Assembly (NCBI GenBank): GCA_026770585.1
Contig: MU646987.1
Span: forward strand, 147,187 to 173,710
Direction: 5' to 3'
DNA: 26,524 bases
DNA from: Baffinella frigidus
Taxonomy: Eukaryota; Cryptophyceae; Cryptomonadales; Baffinellaceae
Shown here one piece after another: positions 5,301-26,524 of the stretch. The notes beneath the pieces were generated by a model. It was not told the origin of the DNA and did not search any database. It worked only from the letters and a program-made list of their open reading frames with translations. The position numbers were made by a program, and so were the translations under genes. How positions within the stretch are numbered: the stretch's first letter is position 1; the number at the start of each line of letters is the position of its first letter.

Positions 5301-8300
5301 TTCAACGAAAGTTACTACACAAATGCCCAGTTTTAAAAGCACATCGGTTTTAAATAGGCCCCTCTAGCATTCTCGAGTGGGCTGCTGACCTTGGAGAACT
5401 ACGGTTTGTACCAGCACGGCCTTGAAACGTCGCGGTGTGGTGTGGAAATCGAGAGGAAAATAACCTGTTTTGTGACTTGTTATGGGTGGGGGGTGCTATC
5501 GTGGCATCATAAAATTCAGACGGACGTGAACATTAATAGGGAAACGGCCTAAACATGGGGTAGTTAGGCCCACGGTATTGCCTACGGTAGGCCGTAGGGT
5601 TTTTCGTAGGAGCCCCCCTAGGCCCCTACGGCCTACCGTAGGCAATACCGTAGGCCTAACTACCCCCTTTTTAGTCCGTTAGCCTGTGTTCATAATCGCG
5701 CGCAGAACCAGGCGGCCGCTGACTCTGGGGAACTTAATCGAGAAACGACCCGAAATTAGGGTAGTTTGCCCTACGGGTTCCCTACCGTAGGAAGAGGGGC
5801 TCCTAGGACCTGGTCCTAGGAGACCTACCTCCTACGGTAGGCCTGGTCCTAGGAGATCCGTAGGCTAAACTACCCTTATGTCGGGTCGTTTCCCTTTGAA
5901 ACTTCGAACCAAGGGCCCTCGAAGAGATTTCCCCATAACCTAGAGCGCTGTGCAGAGAAGTTGGCCACCGAAAAATGGGAAAATGGGGAATTGGAGCCAT
6001 TTTTTCCACTCTTGAGAAATTCATAATACTAAATTTCTCGAAAGTTGACAAAATGGCTCCATTTTCTCGATTTTTCATTATTTCCCGTGGCCAACTTCTC
6101 TGCACAGCGCTCTAACCCATCAATGAATCGTCCGTAGGACCCTACCGTAGGCAATGCCGTAGGACCCTACCGTAGGCAATGCCGTAGGGACATAGGCGGG
6201 TCCTCCACACATCCTCATCGATTCTTGCGTGATACCCACCCAAGAATCCCTTCGTCCACTCGAGGCTGTAAATGGGACTATTTGAAATGTGTGGTTGTTA
6301 AATTTAGTACCAGTCACGGGCAGGCTTGGTCACGTATCTGACAGATTTTAGTCAGATACGTGACCAAACGCCCCCATTTATGTGAAAATTACTACACAGC
6401 TCCTTTTTTTCTTCTCTTGTAAAAGAATCACAGTTTTAAAATGGTCACATTTCTAGCCTCGAGTGGGTACCCCGCTGTGTTTATCCGGGGAAACCTATTT
6501 TTCTTTAGATTGATGGCAAGAAAAATTACTACACAAATGCTTTAATATTACTAATAAGAACGAATTGTGTAGTGATTTTCCTTGCCATCAAACTCAAGAA
6601 AAATGGGTTTCCCCGGATGACTGTGGCTCAACACTCGGCGGGATGACATCGCGTCCTGATATCACGTCCGTCGAAACGCCGGGTTGTGCCACAGCACGGC
6701 CTTGAAACGTCGCGGTGGGCATACGGCATTGCCTAGGACCTCCTACCGTAGGCCGAGGGATCCTAGGACCAAAAAGTCTCGGCCTACGGTAGGAGGTCCT
6801 AGGCAATCCCGTAGGCCTAACTACCCCGTTGGTGTGCGCAGCACCAGGCGGCGGCCGACTCTGGGGAACTGCAGACAAACGACATCGTCTTGAAGATGCA
6901 TGGGGTCGACATCTCGCAGTAACCCCCTCAGCCCTCAACCCTAAATCGTAAACCCTAAACCCTAAACCCTAAACCCTCAACCCTAAACCCTAACCTCAAA
7001 CCCTAAACCTCAAACCCTAAACCCCAAACCCTAAACCCTAAATCATGAACCCTAAACCCCAAACCCAAAACCCTGTCCGAGCGTCCCCCGCACGCCTGAT
7101 GGATCAGAGAGATTGATAATTTAAGGCCTAAATCGGGAACCGCAGCGGCTGCGGGAGCCACACGGCCCCTCCTGGATTCGGGTTTAGGGGTTAGAGATTG
7201 GTAATTTATGGCGAAACAACCAGCGTCAGCGCCGCACATGCTCGACGCATTGTGCCACTTACTGTGCCCCGTGTCGGCCGCTCATACGAGCATTTCCCGG
7301 ATGGATTCTGACTCCACCTCCTACGACTCCACCTCCTACAAGCCTGATGAATCATCTGGACGCTGGTTCTACTTTCGATCTAGATCTCAACAAAACAATC
7401 AATTTTGCGACACATCATGCCTCAACTTTTCACTCCGTTTTGGGCCCCTCGTTCTACCTGGGCGAGAACCGGCTAATCTTATAGGGAAACGGTTTTAATT
7501 TAAAACCATTGGATTCAATGAAGATTACTACACTCGTGACTTAATATTACTAGTAAAACTCATTGCGTGTAGTAAATTTCATTGCCAGAAAGTTTTAAAT
7601 TAAAACCGTTTCCTTATGAAATCCTCGCTCTGTCCCACTCAATCTGGTCTCGTCAACATTAGTTTTAAAGAAGGATCTCCAGTACGAATTAACTGTCCAT
7701 CTACCTCTGTTGTTTTTATATGATGAGACCAAATTGAACTGGGACAAAGCTAGTAATCTAGCCCTAATCTAGATCAACACGCCCCCCCCCCCAAGCGTGG
7801 GGGGGGGAGCATGTTGAGGCAGCTTCTGATATACGATTTAAACAGAGTCGGTAGGCTCAACGTCTCTTATATACTATCCACGAAGAGAACATATGATATG
7901 TCCCAGCCCAGAACATATCCCACTTCGCACTGCGTCAATCAAAAGGATTTTTGGAACAGAACCAGCTATCAGGCCCCTCAAAGTGAGTTAAGCTCAGAAA
8001 TGGCCCCAACCCCCACCCAAATTTGAGATACAATCCATTGAGGGCCGCGAAGAAATCCGAAATTGGTACCAGAAAATCTCAGGTTTCTGGTAGATGGTAC
8101 CAGAAAATCTGGTAGTTGGTACCAAAAAATCTCAGATTCGTCAACAAGCGTGGGGGGGGGGGGCGTGTTGAGGCATATGTTGCGCTCCTTTTGTTAAGCA
8201 TCGAACATTTGAGAGGCGAGTCTCGAATGCCCCACCTCTACACACTTCGAATACCCCACCCCACCTCAACACACAGTCTCGAATGCCCCATCTCAACACA

Positions 8301-11546: not shown

Positions 11547-11757
11547 CTAACCCCTAACCCCTAACCCCTAACCCCTAACCCCTAAACCCTAAACCCTAAA
11601 CCCTAAACCCCACACACTACACCCCAAACCCTGACCCTACACCCTACACCCTACACCATACACCATAAACCCTAAACCCTGCACCCCAAATCCTAAACCC
11701 TAGACACCAAACCCTCAACCCTCAACCTTAAACCCTAAACCCTACACCCTACACCCA
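11547..11757. repeat. Telomere-like array CCCTAACC / CCCTAAA
   Basis: Four to five CCCCTAA units, then CCCTAAA and degenerate CCCTACA/CCCTCAA units. Confidence 0.9.
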
Positions 11758-13623: not shown

Positions 13624-13718
13624 GGGAAAAAGCTGGCCAGTTTTTTGTTAAGTACATGTACTGAAACTGTTTGGGGTGTGGGAGCTCGGAGAACCTCAAG
13701 GACCTCAAGAGCTCAGGC

Positions 13719-13936
13719 GCCTTTGCGCCAGAGGGATTCGAAGTGGGCCATGGTAATAGCGTAACAGGCTGAAAACCGGGTAGTTATGCCTACGGTATTG
13801 CCTACGGTAGGCTGTAGGGCCCTAGGGGGGGTGCTATGAAACATGAGGTCCTAGGGGCCCTACGGCCTACCGTAGGCAATACCGTAGGCCTAAGTACTCG
13901 GTTTTCAGTCCGTTATCTTATGAATGGTGAGGCGGG
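13719..13936 (-). pseudogene. EF-hand exon 6 copy, split by element F
   Basis: Minus strand ACCATGGCCCACTTCGAATC reads TMAHFESLWRKGA and stop, one residue from the intact TMAQFESLWRKGA at 14387-14467. Upstream a family F element (13755-13923) interrupts it between duplicated ATGGT; beyond it GACGGGCCCGCCTCACCAT may be the preceding codons. Confidence 0.75.
13755..13923. mobile_element. Family F element in an EF-hand exon copy
   Basis: Arms AACAGGCTGAAAACCGGGTA and complement; core GGTATTGCCTACGGTAGG. ATGGT on both sides (13750-13754, 13924-13928) looks like a 5-bp target duplication. Confidence 0.75.
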
Positions 13937-13978
13937 CCCGTCCTACAACCCACAGCCCCGCGGCGGGCCCGTCCCGCA

Positions 13979-14084: not shown

Positions 14085-14106
14085 TATCAGGAGCCTTTGC
14101 GCCTGA
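14085..14106 (-). pseudogene. EF-hand exon 6 3'-end fragment
   Basis: Minus-strand GGCGCAAAGGCTCCTGA (RKGS, stop), sandwiched between two E elements; compare GGCGCAAAGGCGCCTAG at the true exon end. Confidence 0.6.
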
Positions 14107-14386: not shown

Positions 14387-17300
14387 CTAGGCGCCTTTGC
14401 GCCATAGGGACTCGAACTGGGCCATGGTGAGGCGCCCGTCGTGGTCGGAATCGAACTCGAAGAATATCTGGGGTTGGGCGAGGGGCGTTTGTTAACACGT
14501 AGCTCCACGCACAATTAATACAAGTAAATGCGGATGCACGTTAATACGGTAACGGCCTGAAAATGGGGTAGTTAGGCATACGGCATTGCCTAGGACCTCC
14601 TACCGTAGGCCGAGACTTTTTGGTCCTAGGATCCCTCGGCCTACGGTAGGAGGTCGTAGGCAATGCCGTATGCCTAACTACCCCATTTTCAGGCCGTTAG
14701 CCTATGAAAATGCGGATGCGCGTTCGCGATTGTAACGGCAAAGGCCATCAGGCGATGGACCCACACGAGGCTACCTATGCGAACATAATAAATGTCGATT
14801 GTAAACGTGTGTAGTAATTTTCAGATGAAAGCCTTGATACTTTACACAAGTCCGACCGCTCAGCGGGCGGAAACGTGATCATTTGCTGACTTTTGGCGTG
14901 TTTCCTGGGCAATAATCCAATAATTAACTTATGAATCTGTTCGCATGGATAGCCTCGTGTGCATTACAGGGGTTTCTCGCGAAAAAGGGCACGCGCCGTC
15001 CCTAGGGTGGTCCTCTGCTCCTAGGACTAGCCCTACGGTAGGGCCCTAGGGGAGAGAGAACTCAAAGAATACAGGGGTACCTCGCGCATAAGAAAGCGGC
15101 TCCCCATAGGACCCTACAGTAGGACCATGCCTAGGGCCCTATGGTGGTCCTAGGGGGGGTGCGCTTTCTTATGAGCGAGGTACCCCTGTATCCGCCATCA
15201 GGAGAGGGACATTGATTACATGGATGGTGCCACCAACCCTCACGGGCTGAGCAAATCAATGATTTTCCATTTTCGATTTTCAAGGCAAAATGGCTCCACC
15301 CACTCGAGGCTAGAAATGGGACCATTTTAAAGGTGGGGTTGTTAAATTTAGTACCAGTCACGGGCAGGTTTGGTCACGTTGCTCGGAGAATTCCCCCAGC
15401 AACGTGACCAACCCCCCCTATTTGTGTGAAAATTACTACACCTCTCTTTCCCCCCTTCACTTGTACAAGAAGCTCTGTTTTAAAATGGTCCCATGTCTAG
15501 CCTCGAGTGGACGGATGCCGGTATCCGGCGGCCTCCAAGGGAAATACGTGACCTCAAATTCGACGATTTGCTCAGGCTATGAGGGTTGGTGGTATGCTCC
15601 CATGACCAGCCCTACTGTAGGACTACTGTAGGACCCTAGGGCGGAGAGAACTCGAAGAGTATCTGAGATTAGGAGAGGGACCGTTACAGGGGGTACTCTC
15701 GAATAAGGACACACGCCGGACCCACAGGGGTTCCTCGCTCATAAGAAAGCGCCTCCCCCTAGGACCCTACAGCAGGCCTATGCCTAGGGCCCTATGGTGA
15801 TCCTATGGGGGCGGGCGCTTTCTTATGAGCGAGGTACCCCTGTATGCTGCTAGGACTAGCTATCCCACAAGTGGCCATGCCGTCAAATTTGACGGCCAAG
15901 AGGTCCTAGGCAGGTCCTAGGGCCCTACGGTAGGGCGTATGAGCCTACTGGCCACTTAAGGGATATGTGACGTCGGATACTATAGGACCCTAGGCCGCTG
16001 TCGAACTCGACGAGACTCTGCCAGCAGGGGAGGGCCCGGTAGCCGCTATCGAGGCACCCGAGGGTTCGTTTAAAAGTCAGGACCGGAAATTCGGTCCCAG
16101 CTTTTTCATTTTAAAAGTCCACTCCCCTTAGCATTCAGGCGAAAGTTTTTTCAACCCTCTAAAATTGAATTGACGTCCTCGCTCGGCAGCGGTAGCTCGA
16201 GAATAGTCGGCGAGCCAGCGTGAGGCAGAGCTAGGCCTCGCTAGGGGGGTGCCAAGTCGAAGAGCGCACTCCAGTGGTCGAGGGTGGCCACACAGTACAC
16301 TCGGAGCCAGAACGTTTCGCCTAAGTCAACTCCCCCTGAAAGCTAGCGCCTTAAGTCAAATGCCTGGTCCCAGACCAGGGTCCATCTAAACGAAATCAGG
16401 GGAAAGTTGACTTAGGTGAGCTGGTTGACTTAGCTGAAATCGTGTGGGTCGGAGTGCAGTACCAGAGAGTTCCAGCGCTGCCTCAGTCGGGCTGGCTGTC
16501 ATTTTGTTCTCAAGTTGACATGCTGGGTTTGTGGTGCAGATTTGTCCACTTTGGCGCGGGAGCCCAGGCCAAAGTGGACGCGGGAAAGAGCCCAGGCTGT
16601 CCGAACTGGTGGACCCAAATAGACTGAGAAAGAGCTAGGTTATTGGTATCGCTGTCGAACTCGAAAAAGGTTTGTCACCACACGGTGGACTACGAACCTT
16701 TCATCAAACGTCAACTTACCTCAAGACAATTAACTTTAAGGATTTTTCTCATGCAAATTGGTCACGTAACACCCCGGAATCCGGGGTCACCGAAACCCTC
16801 GTAGCCCACCGAGTGGTCAGGCGAGAGACATTTGTTAGTACCAGGAAAGGGTTGACCTTTATTATTCCTCTTGCAGAGCGCGGCCCACCGAGACAAAAGT
16901 CGAGAGTGGAACGTCTCAAAGCAAAAGTGGAACCTCTGTTAACTTAAGAAGTAACAGAATACTAGGGAGATAAAACTTCCTTGGGTACCAGGAGAGCCGC
17001 TTTACAAATCTGTTCATGGGGACCACCACGCGACGATGGGATGCGTATCAAATCGACCTGGCTCCAAAGTCAACTCACCCACAAATCCGTCAACTTGTCC
17101 CGGAATCCGCCCAACAATACTTTTAGTAGTGCATAAATAATAGACAGACGGGTCGGATTTGATACACAGGTTATCGTCGCGGGGAAGGTCTATCAAGTTG
17201 GGGAAACCCTGTTCGACCAGACGCTCCCTCACCACCAACCCTCCCAGTTGGACCAAATCATCGATTTGAGATTTGAGACCTACCCTTGTAGAGACCCCAG

Positions 17301-20290
17301 ATCCGGGGTCTCTGTAAGGGTCAATCAAGGGTAAATCTACAATCTGAAATCGACGATTTGGTCCAATCGTGAGGGTTGGTGGGACTTTACGCGGCATAAG
17401 TGGCCGCAAGCTCGGTGCTTTACTGTACCTGGGGTTATTTTTGCTCGGTGCTTTACTGTACCTGGGGTTATTTTTGCTCGGTGTTTTACTGTACCTGGGG
17501 TTATTTCTACAGTGCGGAAGCACCTCCTGGAAGACCCTCGTCGCATCCTCGAGCGTCAGGAAAGAGTATTATATAGTCTATACATCCATTATATATATCT
17601 TTATACAGGGCTATCCCTTATCTGCCTGCGCCGCCTCAAGTCGTCACCGTTAACTAGCCCCCAAAATGTCTATCTTTCAAAAATGACATTTTTGGGCTTG
17701 GCCGCCCCTGCATGGAAAAATCTAGAAAAATAACCAGCTTGTCAGGCTCGCTAAGCTGAAAAAATTGAAATTGGTGCTTGACGATCTGAGAAACCCCAGA
17801 TTTTTTTAGATCCGGGAAACCCTCGTCCGCACCATGCAAAGCCTGAGGGGCCCGTGTAGTAATTTTGATTGAAACGTTTGAAAATTGAAACGTTTCGGCA
17901 GATAAGGGATACAACCATTATATAGCGCATTATATAGCCTATAAATTCATTATACCCCCCCGTGAAACCCGGTTAGGGTCAGGGTAGCACCTGCTCGACT
18001 AGGTGCTCCCCGCACGTGCGCGCAGCTCTACATGTATTGTATAGCCTATCCATTATACGTATACATCCATTGTACCCACCCGTGAAACCCGGTTAGGGGC
18101 TGGGCAGGACCTGCTCGACCAGACGTTCCCCGCACGTGCGCCCGGCTCTACATGTATTGTACAGCCTATACATCCATTATACGTATACATCCATTATACC
18201 GTGAAACCCGGTTAGGGTCAGGGCTGGACCTGCTCGACTAGGCGCTCCCGCACGTGCGGAGCAACCTCTTGGAAAACCCTCTTTGCGTCATCGAGCGTGA
18301 GGAACCTGGGGTTGCGGTGGGCTTTGGGGTTTGTTTGGGGTTTGGGGTTTGGGGTTTGGGGTTCAGGGTTCAGGGTTCAGGGTTCAGGGTTCAGGGTTCA
18401 GGGTTCAGGGTTCAGGGTTCAGGGTGCAGGGTTTCGGTTTTAGGGGTTGGGAGTGACCCCTCGGAGCGCCTGTCCGCGGCCTCGAAAAAAGTTAAGGGTT
18501 TAGGGTTTGGGGTTAGGGATTAGGGTATAAGGTTTAGGGATCAGGTTTTAGGGTTGAACGTTATCACGTGCCACGGGAGCTGTTTTCTGTTTTCTGTTTT
18601 CTGGTTTCTGTTTTCTAGTTTCCAGTTTCCGGTTTCTGGTTTCCGGTTTCTGGTTTCTGGTTCCACTTTTCTGGTTTCCGGTTTCTGGTTTCTGGTTTCT
18701 GGTTCCGGGTTTCATGTTTCGTGTTTCGAATTTCGGGTTTCGGAGGGTGCAGGGTCTGACCCCGCGGAACGCCTGTCAGCGGCTTTGAAAGCCAGCCGCA
18801 TCATGTCTCCCTCGTCCTCCCCCTGGGTTAGGGTTGAGGGTTTGGAGTTTGGGGCTTAAGGTTTAGGGATGACAGGTTAGGGATAAGGGGTCAGGAATGA
18901 GCTTTTAGGGTTTATGGTATATGGTTTAGGGTTTGGGGTTTAGGGTTTAGGGTTTAGGGTTTAGGGTTCAGGGTTTAGGGTTTAGAGTTTAGGGTTTAGA
19001 GTTTAGTTTTGGGGGATCAGCGTTCCTTCTCTTTGAGGTTTAGGGTTCGTTATTCCAATGCTTCGTTTAGGGTTTGGGGTTTAGAAGAAAAACTATCGAA
19101 GACAACCACATGGCCACCATGTACCCCCTTCCGTGACGGCCTTGTAGGACTAGGACCTGAACGTTTAGGGGTTACAGTTAGTCCTATTTTGGATTTGAGG
19201 CTTGTCCCCCTCCCTGCGTGAGCGAGAGGGAGAAGTTTATTAATGCCAAAACGAAGCTGATTCCCCGGGGCTGGGGTACAAATCTGCCAGTTTTCGCGGA
19301 GCAAACATTCGAAGCTGATTCCCCGGGGCGAAGCTGATTCCCCGGGGCTGGGGTACAAATCAGCCAGTTTTCGCGGTGCAAACATTCAGTGAACCTTTCG
19401 CGGAGCAAATGTTCCGTGAACCCGGCGGAATCCTAGCTCTGTCTCAGTCTATGTGGCCTCACCAATTCGGTGAGCCCGGGCTCTTCCCCGCTGCAAAGTT
19501 GACGGGTGTGTACCGCAAGCCCAGCGTGTCAACTTGAGAATGGTCAGTCAACCTGAGTAGGGCACAGCTAGGAGGCTCGCGAGGGCTGGTGGAGGGGTCG
19601 GACCAAAGGGCAACTGAGAAGCTTTCGATGCACATCCTAGCGCTGCCTCTCGTTTGTTCTGCGTACAAAAGGGCAACTGAGATGCTTTGGATGCGGCACC
19701 TCCGCGCGCTGCCGCACAGCCGCCAGGAACTCCTCCCACCCCACCGCGTACCCTCCAGTCGCCGGGCCCGCATCCTCCCCGGCGCCGTGCGCGCCCCCTC
19801 CTGCAGCGCCGCTCCGGGAGTACGAGGAGGTGGGGGGGAAGGATGCGGCGAGGGTGGGCGTGTGTGCGTGACCGAAGAGCACCGCCAGTTCGTAGCGTGT
19901 CGGCTTGTACCTGCCGGCGCAGGCGGCGTGAGGTTGACGGGCTTTCCACGCCATGGCTCTACAAATGCCCCACGCGAGGACGAGATGCGGCAATCGAGAG
20001 CCGCGCTGCCGCAGTATGGGGGGCGAGGGGCGATACCCGAGGAGCTCCATAAAGGCAAGTTTGACCCCTTCGCGCGTGAGGCTCCCGCTCCCCTCCGCAT
20101 CGTACCGCTCAAACGCCCTCCGCGCCCGCGCCTCGAACGCCTCCGCAGTCCTACTACCCCCGCCCGCACGCGCCGCCGCGCCGCAGCGGCCGCTCGCAGT
20201 GTGCGAGGACGGCGCCCCCCAGAGCGCGCCGCCGTGCAGGCCGGTGTGCCCCCCGGCCCGGAGCGCGTGCCAGTCGCGCAGCCCCTCCAT
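14387..20290 (-). CDS. EFCAB11: EF-hand protein resembling EFCAB11, six exons
   Basis: Exons on the minus strand: 20290-20037 (ATG in AACATGG), 19910-19873, 19800-19700, 18822-18761, 18305-18230 and 14467-14387 (TAG). Phases 2/1/0/2/0 join without error to 203 residues. EF1: AFERYDAEGSGSLTREGVKL (acidic residues at loop 1, 3; Glu missing at 12), then MELLGYKPTRYELAVLFG across exons 1-2, the family signature after EF1. Exon 3 ends GYAVGWEEFLAAVRQRAE (degenerate EF2). Exon 4 (GEDEGDMMRLAFKAADRRSA) plus exon 5 (GFLTLDDAKRVFQEVAPHV..) form EF3, very close to human EFCAB11 GFLTLEDFKKAFRQVAP as I recall it. EF4 in exon 6, IFFEFDSDHDGRLTMAQFES, has Asp at 1, 3, 5, Gly 6 and Gln instead of Glu at 12, so it is the best calcium site. 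The protein ends LWRKGA, as short after EF4 as in the family. Residues 1-60 are Ala/Gly-rich and unrelated. Likely a calcium-binding accessory protein; role unknown. Introns of 126, 72, 877, 455 and 3762 nt carry telomere-like arrays, elements and broken exon copies. Confidence 0.85.
14525..14736. mobile_element. Family F element between direct repeats
   Basis: Element 14552-14698: ACGGCCTGAAAATGGGGTAG and complement, core GGTCCTAGGATCCCTCGGCC. Flanks AAATGCGGATGCACGTT (14526) and AAATGCGGATGCGCGTT (14708) are a direct repeat of 17 bp or more. Confidence 0.75.
14762..14961. mobile_element. Family K element
   Basis: CACACGAGGCTACCTATGCG and complement CGCATGGATAGCCTCGTGTG; contains GTGTAGTAATTTTC in its left half. 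Right half as at 4152-4246. Confidence 0.8.
14965..15052. mobile_element. Degenerate H-like fragment
   Basis: TTACAGGGGTTTCTCGCGAA start and CCTACGGTAGGGCCCTAGGG core; right arm missing. A similar start occurs at 15683-15720. Confidence 0.5.
15053..15071 (-). pseudogene. EF-hand exon 6 5'-end fragment
   Basis: Minus ATTCTTTGAGTTCTCTC, compare ATATTCTTCGAGTTCGATTC at the exon 6 start; broken by H on one side and by a CCTAGGGCCC core on the other. Confidence 0.55.
15070..15190. mobile_element. Family H element (TA-flanked)
   Basis: TACAGGGGTACCTCGCGCAT to ATGAGCGAGGTACCCCTGTA. Confidence 0.9.
15230..15592. mobile_element. Family C element with nested L element
   Basis: CCACCAACCCTCACGGGCTG.. 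and ..GAGGGTTGGTGG; compared with the copy at 1136, the sequence is split after GGCTCCAC by L3 (15299-15510) and resumes ACGGATGCCGGTATCCGG. Confidence 0.9.
15299..15510. mobile_element. Family L element nested in C
   Basis: CCACTCGAGGCTAGAAATGG to TCTAGCCTCGAGTGG; inner GTCACGTTGCTCGGAGAA hairpin and GAAAATTACTACAC. Confidence 0.9.
15647..15668 (-). pseudogene. EF-hand exon 6 5'-end fragment with acceptor
   Basis: Minus CTAATCTCAG then ATACTCTTCGAGTTCTCTCC, matching the intron end and first five codons (IFFEF) of exon 6. Confidence 0.6.
15723..15844. mobile_element. Family H element
   Basis: CACAGGGGTTCCTCGCTCAT to GAGCGAGGTACCCCTGTA; left TA lost. Confidence 0.85.
15861..15965. mobile_element. 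Family E element
   Basis: TATCCCACAAGTGGCCATGC to GGCCACTTAAGGGATA; GTCAAATTTGACGGCC core. Confidence 0.85.
15996..16023 (-). pseudogene. EF-hand exon 6 5'-end fragment
   Basis: Minus TGCTGGCAG then AGTCTCGTCGAGTTCGACAGC (SLVEFDSG), compare IFFEFDSD. Followed by CCTAGGGTCC. Confidence 0.55.
16024..16319. other. Intron 5 spacer
   Basis: Half of a family A end near 16190-16235 (GAGAATAGTCGG.. GAGGCAGAGCTAG). The minus frame 16320-16250 reads FWLRVYCVATLDHWSALFDL; the GCTCTTCGACTTGG part may be a seventh, weak exon 6-like fragment. Confidence 0.4.
16320..16416. mobile_element. Family G element
   Basis: CCTAAGTCAACTCCCCCTGA to CAGGGGAAAGTTGACTTAGG, tip TGGTCCCAGACCA. Confidence 0.75.
16476..16638. 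mobile_element. Family A element
   Basis: CTGCCTCAGTCGGGCTGG to CAAATAGACTGAGAAAGAGC, with CCACTTTGGC..GCCAAAGTGG inner palindrome. Confidence 0.7.
16640..16672 (-). pseudogene. EF-hand exon 6 fragment between A and D elements
   Basis: Minus ACCTTTTTCGAGTTCGACAG then CGATACC reads FFEFDSDT, the start of EF4 up to loop residue 3, then cut on both sides. Confidence 0.65.
16677..16817. mobile_element. Family D element
   Basis: ACCACACGGTGGACTACGAA to CGTAGCCCACCGAGTGGT; CCCCGGAATCCGGGG core. Confidence 0.85.
16818..17196. other. Intron 5 spacer
   Basis: A weak inverted repeat GCGTATCAAATCGACC (17042) / GGTCGGATTTGATAC (17151-17165) surrounds 100 bp. No exon recognised. Confidence 0.4.
17232..17382. 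mobile_element. Family C element inside exon 5 copy
   Basis: CCACCAACCCTCCCAGTTGG to CGTGAGGGTTGGTGG; GAGACCCCAGATCCGGGGTCTC core. Confidence 0.85.
17411..17508. repeat. 33-bp tandem repeat, three units
   Basis: CTCGGTGCTTTACTGTACCT.., almost identical units, ending at the exon 5 copy. Confidence 0.9.
17614..17911. mobile_element. Long inverted-repeat element W
   Basis: CTATCCCTTATCTGCCTG and GCAGATAAGGGATA termini about 300 bp apart; inside, ATTTTTGGGC, GTGTAGTAATTTTG and a TTTCAATTTTCAAACG stretch. Ends only moderately matched. Confidence 0.5.
17955..18250 (-). repeat. 120-bp tandem units carrying exon 5 end and donor
   Basis: Units start at 17962, 18082 and 18201 (GTGAAACCCGGTTAGGG). 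Each has, on the minus strand, CACGTGCGGG..CTAGTCGAGCAG|GT, the last codons of exon 5 plus a donor, and ends in an ATGTATTGTATAGCC..CCATTATA stretch. Confidence 0.85.
18306..18452. repeat. Telomere-like array in intron 4
   Basis: TTTGGGG units then about nine TTCAGGG units; they start 12 bases from the exon 5 acceptor. Confidence 0.9.
18453..18491 (-). pseudogene. EF-hand exon 4 copy, 5' truncated
   Basis: Minus TTTTTCGAGGCCGCGGACAG then GCGCTCCGAGGGGTCACTC reads FFEAADRRSEGSL; the exon at 18761-18822 reads AFKAADRRSAGSD at this point. A GT after GAGGG matches the real donor position. Confidence 0.75.
18492..18745. repeat. Telomere-like stretch and TTTCTGGTTTC minisatellite
   Basis: GGGTTTAGGG units to 18553, then units of 7-14 bp (TTTCTGGTTTCTGG, TTTCCGG) to about 18745. 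Open frames here are artefacts. Confidence 0.9.
18826..19085. repeat. Telomere-like TTTAGGG array in intron 3
   Basis: Best at 18935-19010. On the minus strand its end (ACCCTAACCCAG) is the exon 4 acceptor. Confidence 0.9.
19253..19410. repeat. Direct repeat GAAGCTGATTCCCCGGGGCT
   Basis: 58-bp units at 19253-19310 and 19330-19387 plus a 19-bp partial between; then a small CGGAGCAAATGTTCCGTGAA palindrome. Confidence 0.85.
19433..19571. mobile_element. Family A element
   Basis: CTAGCTCTGTCTCAGTCTAT to TGAGTAGGGCACAGCTAG with the full A interior. Confidence 0.8.
19612..19653 (-). pseudogene. Copy of exon 3 end and donor region
   Basis: 19669-19714 (exon 3 end, donor and early intron) recurs 57 bp downstream on the minus strand; in the copy GGCAGCGCTAGGATGTGC replaces GGCAGCGCGCGGAGGTGC. 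A CTTTTGTACGCAG acceptor-like sequence lies between. Confidence 0.65.
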
Positions 20291-20722: not shown

Positions 20723-23700
20723 ATGTCCACGCGAGCCACGCGGGGAAAGGCCGCGGCCGTCGAGGTCGCGATGCCCTCCGTCGCCGAGGAGGTCGCCAGC
20801 ATGATGGTCGGCGTCAAACGCGCGCGCACCAGCTCCGCCCCTGAATCTGCCGCCAAGCGCAACTACAAGGTCTTGCACCCCTCCCCGCTCGCCCACCCAC
20901 CTTCAGGTCCTTCCGCCGCTTGGAGGCGAACATAGAGTCCAGCGTGGTACATCTCCGGATAGTCAGAGCAGGGGGGTTGCACTCCTCTCACCCCCCCATG
21001 GGTCTGACAGCATCCCTCTCAAGCACACCGTGCCCGTGGGCATGGCGAGCGCCTCCTCCATGCGGCGCCGGGGCTGACGGCTGACGCGCGGTCCTCCCAC
21101 CAGGTGACCACAACGGCGCCCAGCGCGCCGCTCGAGCTCGAGCTCAAGGCCGTCGACGAGAACGCGTCCGTGGAGGAGCAGCTCGAGGCGTTTCGCGCCA
21201 TGTACGCGGCGGAGCGCAGCAAGGTCAGCCCCGCGCGACACGCCCCACCACGCGGCAGGCTCTCCCTGAACGGCGCATTCTCCGCATCCACAACGGCGCG
21301 CGCTGACGGCTGACGCATGCGGGGCCGGCTGACCCAAGCGAGCCACCAGCTCAGCCTTGCTCCGTGCGGAATCCAGACCAGGCTGCTGCAGCCCCTCCCG
21401 GAGCGCCTCGACTGTCATGCGTCGATTGTACCTCGATAGGACAGCCAGGACAGCCATCACTGGGTAGATTGCACACCGCGATGCGTGGTTGCGAGAGAGT
21501 GTACGCAGCCGCTGCCCGTCCCCCTCCTCCCCACCAAGCGCGAGCGACGCCCGGTGAAGCGCGCTCCGTGCGCGTGGGTGGGAGCGGAGTTGCTCCCTCC
21601 TGCTCTGCCAAGGCGGCGCATCATGACGCATCCACGCCTGCCCCATGCGGGACTGGCGAAGCATGCGGGACCGGCGCGCCCTCGCCCACAGCCACGGAGA
21701 GCTTGCGCGGGATGCTGTGGGTGCGTGAGTGGGAGCGGAGTGGCTCCCTCCTGCTCTGCCAAGGCGGCCAACCACGCCTGCCCCCGCTGAAGCGTGCTCC
21801 TCGCGGTTGCAGGTTCTGGGTCTGCAGGAGAAGGCGGAGAATGCGGTGTCAAACCGTCTTGATCGCGTCCCTTGGTTTGTACCGCAGGTCGTCGGATTCC
21901 GACAACCTCCAGTACGAATCACGGGGATTGAAAACGACGATTTGCTCCTAGGCTGAGGGCGGGTGGTGTGCAGGTGCTGGAACTGCAGGAGATACTGGAG
22001 AACGCGGTTGAGGGCGTGCCGGGCGACCCTCACAGTTGGAGCAAATCGCCTTTTCCAATTTCCTTGGTTCATACCGCAGGTCATCGGATTCCGGCAACCA
22101 AAACAGACGTTTTCCCAGGGAATTGCCAAAGGCGATTTGCTCCTCGTCTCAAGGCGGGTGGTGTGCAGGTTCTGGACCTGCAGGAGAAAGTGGAGAACGC
22201 GGTGGAGGGCGTACCGGGTGACGCGCGGTCACAGGAGCGCCCACACCCTAGACCCTAGACCCTAGACCTTAAACCCTAGACCCCAGACCCCAGACCCCAG
22301 ACCCTACACCCTACACCCTGCACCCTGCACCACCTACACCCCAAACCCTGGCGGTGAGGCGGTGAGGCGGTGAGGCGGTGATTTGATCCGCTTCAGGGCC
22401 CAGAAAAGCCATCCACGGCTGGAAGCTTGCGTAACAAGTGCAGGGTGCAGCGACGCGAGCTCGCAGGAACGCCCACTCCCCAACACCCAACAGTTTCGCC
22501 AGACCCCAAAAAACGTTCACCTGCGCCCTGCATCCTGCAAAAACCTGAGCCCCGAACCCTTCACCTGAGCCCTGAATCCTGCACCCCGAGCCCCGCACCC
22601 TGCGATTGTACCACGATAGGAGAGATTATTTCACGATCATCGCTGTTACAGGACGCACTGCCCCCCCACACAGCGCTCTTGAGTGCAACATGCCCAATCT
22701 TGGAGCCCTGGGCCAGGCGACGGATGGCATATCCCTTAAGTGGCCAGGTGGTCAAATTTGACCACCAAGAGGTCCTAGGCAGGTCCTAGGACCCTACGGT
22801 AGGGTGTATGAGCCTACTGGCCACTTAAGGGATATTGACCATATGGAACGCCTGACCCCTGAACCCTGAAGTCTGCACCCTGAACCCTGCACCCTGCACC
22901 CTGAAGTCTGCACCCTGAAGTCTGCACCCTGAACCCTGCACCCTGCACCCTGAAGTCTGCACCCTGAAGTCTGCACCCTGAACCCTGCACCCTGCACCCT
23001 GAAGTCTGCACCCTGAAGTCTGCACCCTGAACCCTGCACCCTGCACCCTGAACTCTGCGAGTGTACCACGATAGGAGAGTCGTCACCATTACAGGACTAG
23101 CGGTTGCAGGGGAGCCTCCACCCTAAAACTTGAACCCTACACCTTAACGATTGTTCCACGATAGGAGAGCCTACACCCTCAACCCCCGAACCCTGCACCC
23201 TAGACCCTACGATTGCACCACGACAGGAGAGCCATCACCATCGCTGGGTAGATAGCACAGCATGCATACAGCCAGCGACGCGTTGGTGTTGCTACCCTCA
23301 ACTCCCTCGACGAGTCTCTGCTGCTGTTGGTACAGCAGCAGAGACTCTTCAGCAGCAGACTCTCCAATTCTTGGTACAGCAGCAGAGACTCTTCGAGGCA
23401 GCAGAGTCTCTGCTGCTTCCTCGTTCTTCCATTCTTTTACAAGTGAAGGGAAAAAAATAGGTGTGCAGTAATCTTCACACAAATAGGCGCGTGTGGCCAC
23501 ATATCTGACAGAAATCTGTTAGATACGTGACCAAGCCTGCCCGTGACTGGTACTAAAATTAACAACCCCACATTTAAATTGCTCCCCTTTCCAGCCTCGA
23601 GTGGTTGCTCCCAAGCCTCGCGTGCGCCTTTATCTCAGAAAACGAGTTCTAAAACTCATTTTCTTAAGTCAATTCCCCTACAAATTTGTCAACTTATGCG

Positions 23701-26524
23701 GAGAGTAAAGAATAAGTTGACAAATTCGTAGGGGAATTGACTTAAGAAAACGAGTTTTAGAACTCGTTTTCTGAGATAAGCCTGTCGAAAAACCGTCGCC
23801 TTTCCCGGCAGCCACCTTGCCATGTTCAGTCACCTCCCATGCACCAACGAATCCTGCGTGCTTCAGTTCGCCGCCGCGGGTGGCCCTAATCCCTGAACCC
23901 TAAACCGTATGGCCCTATGGCCCTCGGAAGGTGTGTGGCATTCATTCCCCTAAACCCTCAACGCTAAAACCGAAACCCTAAACTCTAAACCCTGAACCCT
24001 GAACAGAAGCTTGTCAACGACAAGCGCAAGCTCGCTCTCGAGGTGCAGGCGCTCAAAGTAAACCCTAAACCCCCCTAAACCCCACCCCCGAAACCCTCAG
24101 AAACCTGAACCCCTGAACCCATAAACCCAAATCCCTCGCTCACGGTAAACCCAAGTGCAGGCGCCCAAGGCAACCCCCCCACCCCAAACCCTGACCCTCG
24201 TAGGTGTTTGGGGTCGGCGTAGTGACCCCCTTAACAAGGGGTCGTATTGGCGACCCTCTTAGCAAGGGGGGGTCGTATTTGTAACCCCCTGAGCAACGGA
24301 CCACACACACCTTCCGCTTGGGTGATGGCCTCCGGTTGAGGGTTTGCGTGTCAGGGGTACCTAACTCTTAACACCTCGAGGTTCAGAGGTTTGGGGAAGT
24401 GGGTTTGGCGGTTGAGAGATGTAGGGACGGAAGCTGGTCAACGACAAGCGCAAGCTCGCTCTTGAGGTGCAGGCGCTCAAAGTAAACCCTCAACCCCACC
24501 CCCGAAACCCTAAGACCCCTAAATCCCTGAACCCATAAACCCAAACCCCTCGCTCACGGCGAACCCTCAACCCTCAACCCTCAACCTTTACACCAGACTC
24601 CTCTCTCAAGCACACTCGACGCCCTAACCTCTTGCCTCAAGACGCCCTAACCTCTTGACTCAAACCCCTCAACCCTCCCCAGGAGGCAAACACCCAAGCA
24701 GAGGGCCGCGTCAAGGCCCTTACTGCCCAGGTACCTCCCACCCTCACGGAAAGACCAAATCGTCGATTTTCAGACCTCAAATCCACCTTGCAGACACCCC
24801 AGATCTGGGGTGTCTGATCTTAAGTTGACAAAATCTTGGTACATAATCATCTTTTGGGAACAGATAGAAATCAGTCGGTTTGGTCCTCCCGTGAGGGTTG
24901 GGGGTACCTCCCACCCCCCTTACCGCGATTTCAACCTTGAACATCCAACCCGGAAACCTTTATGCTCCAGGTCTCAACCCTGAAACCTTATCTCAGAAAA
25001 CGAGTTCTCAAACTCGTTTTCTCAAGTCAATTCCTCTACAAATTCGTCAACTTATGCGGACAGTAAAGAATAAGTTGACGAATTTGCAGGGGAATTGACT
25101 TAAGAAAACGAGTTTTAGGACTCGTTTTCTGAGATAAAACCTGTACGCTGCTTGCCCTCCGCAGAACACCACGTTCGCGTCACTTCTCAACCTCATCGCG
25201 ATCCATAACAGAATTAATCTCGGAACTGTCCGTCTAAACAATTCTTGGTACACATCCAGGTATTTTAAAGCCCTAAAAGTACGAATATTTTAAACCCCTG
25301 AAATTTCTTGGTGCAAATTTTCGTTTAGAAGGACATTCCTGAGATTAATTATATTTGGTGCTGGGACTAAACCGTGAAAGTGCAAGGCCTCTGCCCCTCG
25401 TGCCTGGATCGCTTCGGCCTAAAACCTAGCCCCCCCCGACCCCGCAGGTTTTGAAGCTGCAAGCATCAGGGGACGGGGAGGTAGTGGCGCCCAAGGCCAG
25501 GGGGCGCATAGACCGTTGGACCACTGATCTCTAGGCTCGGGCGTAATAATGCCGGTCTCAACCCTCAACCCTAATCTCCATACAAGTATTAATTAGTTGC
25601 TTTTGGCAACGAAAATTACTACACGATTTGCTCATAAAAGTAATAGTAAAGCGTTTGGGTAGTAAATTTCGTTGCACCAAAAGCAATTAATTGATACTTT
25701 TGTGGAGATGCACCCTGTGGGCAGGTCTTGACGCTGCAGGCATTCGGCGAGGGGAAAACCGCGGCGCCAGGCAAGATATTCCTAATAACAATAAATAGGC
25801 AAGATAGTCCTAATAATAATAAATAGGCAAGATAGTCCTAATAATAATAAGGCCTAACACCCACGCCCGGCCCCGCAGGTCTCGAAGCTGCAGGCGTCAG
25901 GGGACGGGGAGGTTGCGGCGCCCAAGGCCAGGGGACGCGCCGGCGCCAAGCTCACCTACTCGGCTTCGGCGGGGCAGGTCTGAACCCTGAACCTTCAACC
26001 CTGAACCTTCAACCGTAAGACTCCACGCCACCACCTCTCGCAATCTCTCAGCCCCTAAGCTCACCTACTCGGCGTCGGCGGGGCAGGTCTGAACCCCAAA
26101 CCCTGGACCCGGTTACAAATCCTGAACCAGCTATAAATCCAGATCCATGATCCCTCAAACCCGTGAGCCCTTTTATTACCCTCGAGCCTAGAAACGAGCT
26201 TGCGGCGCCCACGCCCAAGGGGTGCGTTGGCGCGAAGCTCACGTTCTCGGCCTCGGCGGGGCACGTCTAAACCCTGAACCGTCAACCGTAAGACTCCACG
26301 CCACCACCTCTCGCAATCTCTCAGCCCCTAAGCTCACGAGCTCGGCTTCGGAGGGACAGGTCCTGCCCCCACTCTTAAACCGTGAACCTCAAACCTCTCA
26401 CCCCTGAACCCTCACGTCTGCGTCTGCTGGGCAGGTCTAAAACCCGACCCTGAACCCTGCACCCTGCGCCCTGCGCCCTGAACCCTGAACCCCAGGCCTA
26501 ACCCTGCACCCTGCACCCTGAACC
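20723..26524 (+). CDS. Coiled-coil-like protein of tandem micro-exons, 3' incomplete
   Basis: Exons, all phase 0: 20723-20869 (49 codons from ATG, with basic KRAR and AAKR, perhaps nuclear); 21104-21223 (VTTTAPSAPLELELKAVDEN.., EEQLEAFRAMYAAERSK); three 33-nt exons 21813-21845, 21974-22006, 22169-22201 (VLGLQEKAENA, VLELQEILENA, VLDLQEKVENA); 24007-24057 (KLVNDKRKLALEVQALK); 24683-24730 (EANTQAEGRVKALTAQ); 25165 onward (NTTFASLLNLIAIHN, cut by element S); 25879-25977 (VSKLQASGDGEVAAPKARGR.., AKLTYSASAGQ). Each has AG before and GT after. Leu/Glu/Lys content and heptad-like spacing suggest a helical rod; I recognise no family. A further in-frame piece, 20908-20946 (SFRRLEANIESSV, donor GTACAT), fits well but its acceptor is one base off. 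The gene continues past the window. Confidence 0.6.
21329..21480 (-). CDS. SAP-motif-like fragment, antisense in an intron
   Basis: Minus strand reads MAVLAVLSRYNRRMTVEALR, then EGLQQPGLDSARSKAELVARLG. The part from TVEALREGL to ELVARL follows the SAP motif pattern (two helices, DNA/RNA binding: hydrophobics spaced TVxxLRxxLxxxGL..KxELVxRL). CTTGG|GTCAGC could be a donor. It may be an exon of an unseen minus-strand gene or a remnant. The upstream MAVLAVLS segment is echoed at 22602, 23056, 23146 and 23208. Confidence 0.4.
21575..21790. repeat. 60-bp direct repeat in intron 2
   Basis: GGGAGCGGAGTTGCTCCCTC..CTCTGCCAAGGCGGC at 21577-21620 and again at 21730-21770. Part is a short palindrome (GGGAGCGGAGT..GCTCCC). 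Confidence 0.75.
21846..22168. repeat. Duplicated introns with family C-like remnant
   Basis: Introns 21846-21973 and 22007-22168 share CCTTGGTT..TACCGCAGGTC(G/A)TCGGATTCCG and CGATTTGCTCCT..GGCGGGTGGTGTGCAG. The second keeps both arms (GACCCTCACAGTTGGAGCAA..), the first only the right one. Confidence 0.75.
22242..22380. repeat. Telomere-like CCCTAGA/CCCTACA and GGCGGTGA repeats
   Basis: CCCTAGA and CCCCAGA units to 22340, then four GGCGGTGA octamers. Confidence 0.85.
22730..22834. mobile_element. Family E element
   Basis: TATCCCTTAAGTGGCCAG and exact complement; GTCAAATTTGACCACC core. Confidence 0.9.
22868..23048. repeat. Higher-order telomere-like repeat
   Basis: A unit of about 49 bp (two AAGTCTGCACCCTG plus AACCCTGCACCCTGCACCCTG) repeated more than three times. 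Confidence 0.85.
23309..23421. repeat. CAGCAG-rich repeat with hairpins
   Basis: TTGGTACAGCAGCAGAGACT twice, and GAGTCTCTGCTGCT pairing with AGCAGCAGAGACTC. Confidence 0.75.
23435..23604. mobile_element. Family L element, reversed, one end lost
   Basis: TTTTACAAGTGAAGGG.., ACATATCTGACAGAAATCTG hairpin, ..CCAGCCTCGAGTGG; matches the complement of 6256-6466. Confidence 0.8.
23628..23780. mobile_element. Family G element, long form
   Basis: CTTTATCTCAGAAAACGAG.. arms of about 65 bp, including CTTAAGTCAATTCCCCTACA; nearly identical to 24988-25137. Confidence 0.9.
23880..24006. repeat. Telomere-like intron sequence
   Basis: CCCTAAACC/CCCTGAACC units leading directly into the acceptor GAACCCTGAACAG of the exon at 24007. 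Confidence 0.8.
24152..24177 (+). pseudogene. Partial copy of the 24007 exon end
   Basis: AAGTGCAGGCGCCCAAGGCA resembles GAGGTGCAGGCGCTCAAAGT at the true exon 3' end and donor; the donor GT is lost. Confidence 0.55.
24230..24302. repeat. GACCCCCTTAACAAGGGGTC tandem repeat
   Basis: Three units of about 30 bp, each with internal dyad symmetry (CCCTT..AAGGG). Confidence 0.75.
24431..24481 (+). pseudogene. Second copy of the KLVNDKRKLALEVQALK exon
   Basis: 51 nt, same protein as 24007-24057 with only silent changes; donor GTAAAC kept, but the acceptor is ACGG instead of ACAG. Splicing at the next AG (AAG|CTG) would keep frame, so it may still be used. Confidence 0.7.
24731..24913. mobile_element. 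Family C element at a splice donor, with direct repeat
   Basis: GTACCTCCCA at 24731-24740 (donor of the exon at 24683) recurs at 24904-24913; between them CCCTCACGGAAAGACCAAAT to GGTCCTCCCGTGAGGGTTGG. Confidence 0.85.
24988..25137. mobile_element. Family G element, long form
   Basis: TTATCTCAGAAAACGAGTTC.. and complement; sister of 23628-23780. Confidence 0.9.
25212..25350. mobile_element. Inverted-repeat element S interrupting an exon
   Basis: AATTAATCTCGGAACTGTCC and complement GGACATTCCTGAGATTAATT; begins right after NTTFASLLNLIAIHN codons (25165-25211). Confidence 0.75.
25448..25534 (+). pseudogene. Copy of the VSKLQASGDGE exon
   Basis: CCCCGCAG then VLKLQASGDGEVVAPKARGR, then diverges and hits a stop. 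If GAG|GTAGTG is a donor, it is a 33-nt exon (VLKLQASGDGE). A further copy, VLTLQAFGEGKTAAPGK, lies at 25735-25785. Confidence 0.6.
25574..25709. mobile_element. Inverted-repeat element X with TACTACAC tip
   Basis: ATCTCCATACAAGTATTAAT and complement; inner GCAACGAAAATTACTACAC / GTAGTAAATTTCGTTGC. Confidence 0.85.
25771..25850. repeat. GGCAAGATAGTCCTAATAAT tandem repeat, three units
   Basis: Units of 28-29 bp that begin inside the exon copy at 25735. Confidence 0.9.
26052..26436 (+). pseudogene. Tandem copies of the AKLTYSASAGQ exon end
   Basis: KLTYSASAGQ (26057-26086), AKLTFSASAGH (26233-26266), KLTSSASEGQ (26332-26360) and TSASAGQ (26414-26434), each followed by GT except the CAC|GTC copy. 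ACTCCACGCCACCACCTCTC introns are shared between units. Phase differs from the 25879 exon, so most are probably unused. Confidence 0.6.
26437..26524. repeat. Telomere-like CCCTGAACC/CCCTGCACC
   Basis: Degenerate heptamers to the end of the window. Confidence 0.85.

Follow-up and report, generated by a model that had tools for sequence, protein, structure and literature searches.

The window, that is, the whole stretch of DNA that was analyzed, comprises the terminal 26.5 kb of its contig, within an assembly of 382 Mb in 1364 contigs, and carries an EFCAB11-like gene on its minus strand (Table 1). The spliced product of this gene, assembled from exons of the window, matched the EF-hand family PF13499 (E 2.7e-14), with the best stretch at residues 179-239 of 243, which spans exons 4-6, and the 5' exons showed 48% identity to a metagenome protein. 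Heptamers of the plant telomere type (TTTAGGG and variants) formed long arrays at 18333-19006, 6925-7074, 11547-11756, and 3-151, some of which lie within introns. Several families of short inverted-repeat elements with CCTACGGTAGG-type cores were found between 13000 and 16000; by eye, one copy of such an element lay directly 3' of the stop codon of exon 6 (TAG), and the exon copy at 13715 ended with TGA. A local direct duplication of 92 nt at 84% identity was also observed at 25416-25507 and 25851-25938, 435 bp apart.

Table 1. Intact exons, exon pieces, and associated features of the window. Matches are given as identical over aligned positions; P values refer to shuffled flanks.
Feature	Position	Strand	Remarks
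Intact exon 4, EFCAB11-like gene	18761..18821	-	EDEGDMMRLAFKAADRRSAG
Exon 4 end piece with donor	18458..18487	-	25/30, P 0.000; downstream of exon 4
Intact exon 5, EFCAB11-like gene	18230..18304	-	FLTLDDAKRVFQEVAPHVRERLVEQ
120-bp tandem units	17940..18258	-	three units, adjoining/overlapping exon 5
Exon 5 end and donor piece in 120-bp unit	18111-18140	-	26/30, P 0.000
Exon 5 end and donor piece in 120-bp unit	17991-18020	-	28/30, P 0.000
Complete but split exon 5 copy	17209..17562	-	FLTLEDATRVFQEVLPH + VRERLVEQ
Inverted-repeat element within split exon 5 copy	17232..17382	n/a	
Possible exon 6 start piece	16655..16674	-	reads FFEFDSD; 13/14, P 0.30-0.36
Probable exon 6 start piece with acceptor	16003..16041	-	closer to the 15648 copy than to the exon
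Exon 6 start piece with acceptor	15648..15679	-	27/32, P 0.001; upstream of exon 6
Exon 6 start piece, mutated acceptor	15058..15210	-	TA-flanked element inside at about 15071-15189
Intact exon 6, EFCAB11-like gene, with stop codon	14387..14467	-	IFFEFDSDHDGRLTMAQFESLWRKGA, then stop
Possible exon 6 end scrap	14089..14103	-	14/15, weak, P 0.03-0.125
Inverted-repeat element splitting the 13715 copy	13755..13942	n/a	sits between two ACCAT repeats; range includes 19 nt of the copy (13924-13942)
Exon 6 end piece	13715..13754	-	TMAHFESLWRKGA, then TGA; 37/40, P 0.000; downstream of exon 6
Start piece of the 22169 exon	21813..21848	+	31/36; upstream
Copy of the 22169 exon with acceptor and homologous upstream flank	21974..22023	+	44/50; upstream
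Likely intact exon, neighbouring gene	22169..22219	+	VLDLQEKVENAVEGVPG; 3' end chosen by analyst, intactness inferred

Exons 4, 5, and 6 of the EFCAB11-like gene each recurred as same-strand pieces in the adjoining intron or flank, as the earlier note had claimed, and most of these pieces scored above nearly every one of 1000 dinucleotide-shuffled versions of the flanks. The exon 4 fragment claimed at 18453 was recovered as an end piece that keeps the donor, and the exon 5 pieces claimed in the 120-bp tandem units were found in two of the units, the third unit extending into the intact exon itself. The fragments of exon 5 claimed at 17199-17556 turned out to be the two halves of one complete copy (17512-17562, 41/51, P 0.000; 17209-17232, 20/24, P 0.001), split by a 279-bp insert at 17233-17511 and matching exon 5 at 62/76 once the insert was omitted. 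By eye, this copy had no AG at its acceptor, and it differed from exon 5 by 10 synonymous and 4 non-synonymous changes.

The claimed pieces of exon 6 fared less evenly. The start at 15647 and the end at 13719 both stood, and the latter copy continued for another 19 nt beyond its inserted element (13924-13942, 17/19). The start claimed at 15053 was weak with its element left in place (14-22 nt, P 0.30, or 0.047 in a second test); however, removal of the TA-flanked element gave a 30/42 match to the acceptor and exon 6 (P 0.000, 1000 shuffles of the joined piece). The start claimed at 15996 was closer to the 15648 copy (29/39, P 0.000) than to the exon (16/20, P 0.36). The start claimed at 16640, with a DNA match to exon 6 at chance level, and the end claimed at 14085, which is flanked by two copies of one element, were not established. 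The observation that copies retain an acceptor or donor and then break into an element or satellite was often true, but three of the copies described as truncated (13715-13942, 15058-15210, and 17209-17562) were longer and split by elements; these elements landed in pre-existing copies, which explains part of the apparent breaks. On the opposite strand of the flanks, exon 6 gave zero matches in the 1000-shuffle test, the best match of exon 4 had a P of 0.63 (1000 shuffles), and exon 5 had one match at P 0.023 and two weaker ones. As a whole-genome DNA query, exon 6 matched only itself and the 13715 piece, in a search that has limited reach for short pieces, does not recover the established 32-nt piece at 15648, and covers only the part of the assembly that is not N. 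A unique local pair was sought for the large 5' exons (19690-20290), and none was found.

The claim that the neighbours show the same pattern was correct for the exon at 22169 and for genes elsewhere in the assembly, but pieces of the neighbouring gene's other tested exon, at 21105-21223, were sought in 3-kb flanks, and none was found. Specificity was examined by comparing ten exons with their own 3-kb flanks and with the flanks of other genes. On the same strand, 31 matches were obtained in own flanks, with nine of the ten tests positive (not a measure of prevalence, because nine of the ten exons were already known to have pieces), whereas 78 foreign tests gave none. The opposite strand yielded 2 matches from the 10 own tests and 4 from the 78 foreign ones, and two of these four were the exon 4 and exon 5 pieces viewed from the plus-strand neighbour. 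These results confirmed that the pieces are real and specific to their own exon.

Similar pieces were detected at other loci of the genome. A proteasome alpha-2 gene (L037/L035, C53:962470-966657) was located by Pfam search, and two of its exons as a joint query matched solved alpha-2 chains (best E 8.2e-25). The exons are fixed by homology, and this locus is the least biased case. One exon of this gene was preceded by three successive start pieces, each behind an AG, which is an unusually clear example of such a series, and a second exon had one start piece. The last exon, cut by the end of the available sequence, had a full copy upstream, the first exon had two weak end pieces downstream, and one of the five tested exons had no pieces. 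One strong and one weak inverted piece were also present. The pattern is absent from some genes: pieces were found in only one of five proteasome genes (Pfam-matched stretch plus about 1.5 kb on each side), and among ten EF-hand loci, with flanks partly N, clear pieces occurred at L014 and L018. The upstream piece at L014 (29/31) was cut on both sides and is neither of the start nor of the end type. Matches at the EF-hand loci L010, L011, L016, and L019 were provisionally ascribed to repeated EF-hand or EH domains (for L016 as a presumption), and the piece counts exclude these loci together with L024.

Two further loci carried a dense array and nearly full copies, respectively. L021 contained tandem units of about 190 bp and up to about a dozen pieces of its exon B; the gene matched no Pfam family and no homologous protein, and the best E against solved structures was 0.42. 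By eye, a 36-bp palindrome (L021:3588-3624) lies where the first start piece of exon A breaks off. At L027:1970-2434, one exon of ~83-86 nt was present in three nearly full versions, each bordered by AG and GT. Between copies 1 and 3 there were 9 synonymous and 0 non-synonymous changes, and from their sequences the trio is a candidate set of mutually exclusive exons. The gene itself had a weak match to an RNA methyltransferase family (PF04452, E 0.0034, below the cut-off).

The pieces followed a simple polarity rule, in which start pieces lie upstream of the intact exon and end pieces lie downstream of it; this was true of 29 of 29 strong truncated same-strand pieces, a count that sets aside one half of the split full copy of exon 5 and in which pieces of one array are not independent (L021 exon B accounts for 11 of the 29). 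Eight exons, with matches above all 300 shuffles, contributed 6 start pieces upstream and 18 end pieces downstream, with 0 end pieces upstream; the query for L027 exon 1 overran 11 nt into the intron, and one start piece there was barely above the null (17 vs. 16). The other matches of these exons were three near-full copies downstream and one inverted internal piece, and the single downstream "start piece" belonged to the split exon 5 copy, of which it is the first half. The neighbouring gene (above 100 shuffles) added one start piece and one near-full copy, both upstream, and the copy at 21974-22023 was left out of the truncated count because it includes 50 of the 51 nt taken to be the exon. 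The proteasome alpha-2 gene (above 200 shuffles) added 4 upstream start pieces. Most pieces lack one border, unlike full-length copies such as the L027 trio, which has both splice sites. This polarity is what one would expect of local tandem duplication in which a single breakpoint falls within the exon.

Tandem duplication across exon borders has been proposed as a route of intron growth or gain, with few proven cases, and break repair and replication slippage are candidate causes of such duplications. The pieces described here probably arose through short tandem duplications that occurred repeatedly and locally across an exon-intron border (probability about 0.68), with the duplication step itself inferred from the genomic sequence and with break repair or replication slippage as its possible causes. 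Duplication of a stretch from the upstream intron into the exon would give an acceptor and exon start followed by the whole exon, that is, an upstream start piece, whereas duplication of a stretch that begins within the exon and ends in the downstream intron would give the whole exon followed by an exon end and donor, that is, a downstream end piece. A border-crossing tandem duplication would make only these two arrangements, and one intact exon would survive either of them, so that the change could be tolerated. The pieces would presumably be skipped in normal splicing. Inverted-repeat elements later inserted into copies, and together with the expansion of satellites they would have broken up copies and flanks. 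This reading is supported by the polarity, the adjacency of the same-strand copies to their source, the small number of inverted pieces (one in the eight-exon set, and one strong and one weak at the proteasome gene), the visible tandem units at exon 5 and L021, the predominance of direct over inverted local pairs in a genome sample, and, at the sensitivity noted above, the whole-genome match of exon 6 to itself and its 13715 piece only.

Other observations point both ways or count against local tandem duplication. In line with it, the intron beside the retained splice site was copied along in 9 of 23 pieces at P < 0.01 (among them an exon 4 flank that lies in heptamer repeats and an L018 flank in a pyrimidine-rich run), compared with 2 of 23 on the broken side. 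The remaining 14 of 23 retained-side introns had no match at this threshold, which speaks against the mechanism because a plain tandem duplication should copy the flank too. At L021 4615-4687, the exon part was identical at 71 of 73 positions, and the adjoining intron does not align. The breakpoints of L021 exon B also clustered by eye, with start pieces ending at ~36-39 and several end pieces beginning at ~34-40, which independent duplications would not predict, and the L014 piece cut on both sides fits neither type. Donor- or acceptor-like sites at the broken ends, as expected if the pieces were split exons, were inconsistent by eye, and this possibility was rejected.

Differences between pieces and exons were also of a coding type. 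Across 35 pieces of nine exons, weak pieces included, pN/pS was 0.18 (bootstrap over exons 0.12-0.22), a value that is favored low because some exons outside the window were picked partly for looking coding; there were 94.5 synonymous vs. 52.5 non-synonymous differences, and none of the 429 codons was a stop. Taken by themselves, the four exons of the window, including three EFCAB11 exons that were not picked for their coding look, gave 0.17. The proteasome alpha-2 pieces gave 0.33 (12.5 synonymous and 13.5 non-synonymous differences), which is mildly low and closer to neutral. A neutral simulation with an inert piece, a constrained exon, and a detection cut-off yielded 0.45-0.60 and about 4 stops per 400 codons; it used ungapped pieces of 12-26 codons and a single score cut-off of 19, whereas some of the 35 real pieces score below 19 and are trimmed by local alignment. 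The whole set, with its ratio of 0.18 and 0 stops, is off the expectation for neutral pseudo-exon debris, although the proteasome pieces alone are not clearly off it. Transition bias at third positions did not account for the excess, as simulations with kappa 1-8 still gave 0.45-0.60, and neither did a reading-frame artefact, as the other frames gave 1.3-2.8 and the antisense frame that shares third positions 0.30 (one exon in the set was misframed). Ectopic gene conversion would, by argument, reset both types of difference and leave the ratio at 0.5 or above. The piece-exon differences are too synonymous for pieces that were inert from birth and in this respect count against the preferred mechanism; if the excess is upheld in an unbiased exon set, it contradicts a plain debris view.

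Tandemly duplicated mutually exclusive exons have reportedly been described by Letunic in 2002, and an alternative explanation that is possible but rather unlikely is that whole exons were duplicated first and both copies were long used as mutually exclusive alternatives, the pieces being their later-truncated remains. Such a history would explain the synonymous excess, and full copies do exist, both as the split exon 5 copy and as the L027 trio with its AG and GT. The exon 5 pair and this trio also resemble tandem mutually exclusive exons in being adjacent same-strand copies; in contrast, most copies here have lost one splice site and part of the exon. Truncation would moreover be expected on either side, but no upstream end pieces and no unsplit downstream start pieces were found among the 29. 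An explanation slightly less likely still is that exon and pieces derive from long-separated functional copies (homeologues, haplotypes, or paralogues) that were joined by unequal exchange or templated patching of breaks. This would explain both the polarity and the coding-type divergence, as well as the near-complementary breakpoints of L021 and the unmatched introns beside near-identical exon parts, whereas the whole-genome search with exon 6, at the sensitivity noted above, showed no second copy.

It is also conceivable, although doubtful, that the pieces are used by the cell, with some under protein-level selection, so that exons would be renewed or varied from flanking arrays of half-exons and introns would act as a store with working splice sites. 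Insertion of the pieces from nearby DNA during break repair, or their carriage by mobile elements, is improbable. Some pieces do abut elements, and the local distances fit human events with donors within 5 kb (PMC2671141); on the other hand, insertion should by our reasoning leave the side free and should not preserve the strand, both of which are fixed here, exon 6 shows no dispersed copies within the reach of the whole-genome search, and elements sit inside three copies and are thus younger than those copies. Assembly error or chance similarity in low-complexity DNA is very improbable: satellite-rich introns are indeed hard to assemble and two listed pieces are near chance, but the strong copies in the window diverge by 7-20% from their exon and carry different insertions, and the foreign flanks gave 0 same-strand matches in 78 tests.

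Each single event required by local tandem duplication is of a known kind. In a potato RdRp gene, a new intron and an insertion of exon sequence, as seen in RNA, resulted from a single tandem duplication that ran from an intron's end into the exon behind it (PMC4974935). Its product, an acceptor and exon start followed by the whole border again, corresponds to the start-piece arrangement; unlike this one recent, RNA-seen event, the pieces found here are many, lie in several genes, are in many cases diverged, include end pieces, and are known from genomic sequence (PMC4974935). Among repair-mediated duplications in vertebrates, 824 human cases have a donor within 5 kb, and the donors include 4 classed as "partial exon/intron," while full exon and intron/full exon/intron account for 2 each; the case treated at length is inverted within an intron (PMC2671141). 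These duplications are likewise short and local and can take in exon parts and splice sites, whereas the pieces here are nearly all same-strand and polar (PMC2671141). In the Exonize catalogue of 20 eukaryotes, partial, inter-boundary, and intronic events affect many more genes than full ones, full-exon duplication occurs in about 4-7% of vertebrate genes, and lower eukaryotes generally have fewer events (PMC12343006). Exon-like sequence in introns of the same gene is common to both data sets, but the polarity and array structure found here are not described in the portion of that account available (PMC12343006). Within limited keyword searches, no account of polar exon-piece arrays was found; single cases of such duplication are known, whereas dense, orderly arrays look unusual, and neither their density nor the polarity rule nor the coding-like divergence was encountered in the literature found. 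With pieces that would differ in age, some of them nearly identical to the exon, such a genome would allow the steps of duplication, splice-site competition, decay, and element insertion to be followed and timed. It would also put to the test how splicing stays accurate where acceptors and donors are duplicated many times over, and the polarity rule is a simple count that could be tested in any annotated genome.

The exon pieces form the exon-touching part of a wider, general local direct duplication, and their distribution is patchy but extends over multiple genes. In a genome sample, unique local pairs less than 2 kb apart comprised 83 direct vs. 9 inverted pairs, although overlap among the pairs makes them non-independent. 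Of 53 usable local unique direct pairs, 5 showed third-position periodicity at P < 0.05, vs. 4 of 877 dispersed pairs. Most local duplications were without coding signal; targeting of exons was therefore unsupported, and exons seem to be caught in the duplications, not targeted. Three of the five periodic local pairs came from the L021 exon B array, and a repeated domain at L024 supplied another. By eye, a long open frame at the latter locus (L024:7700-9500) contains glycine-rich repeats and a 26-codon domain that recurs, and no introns are obvious in it.
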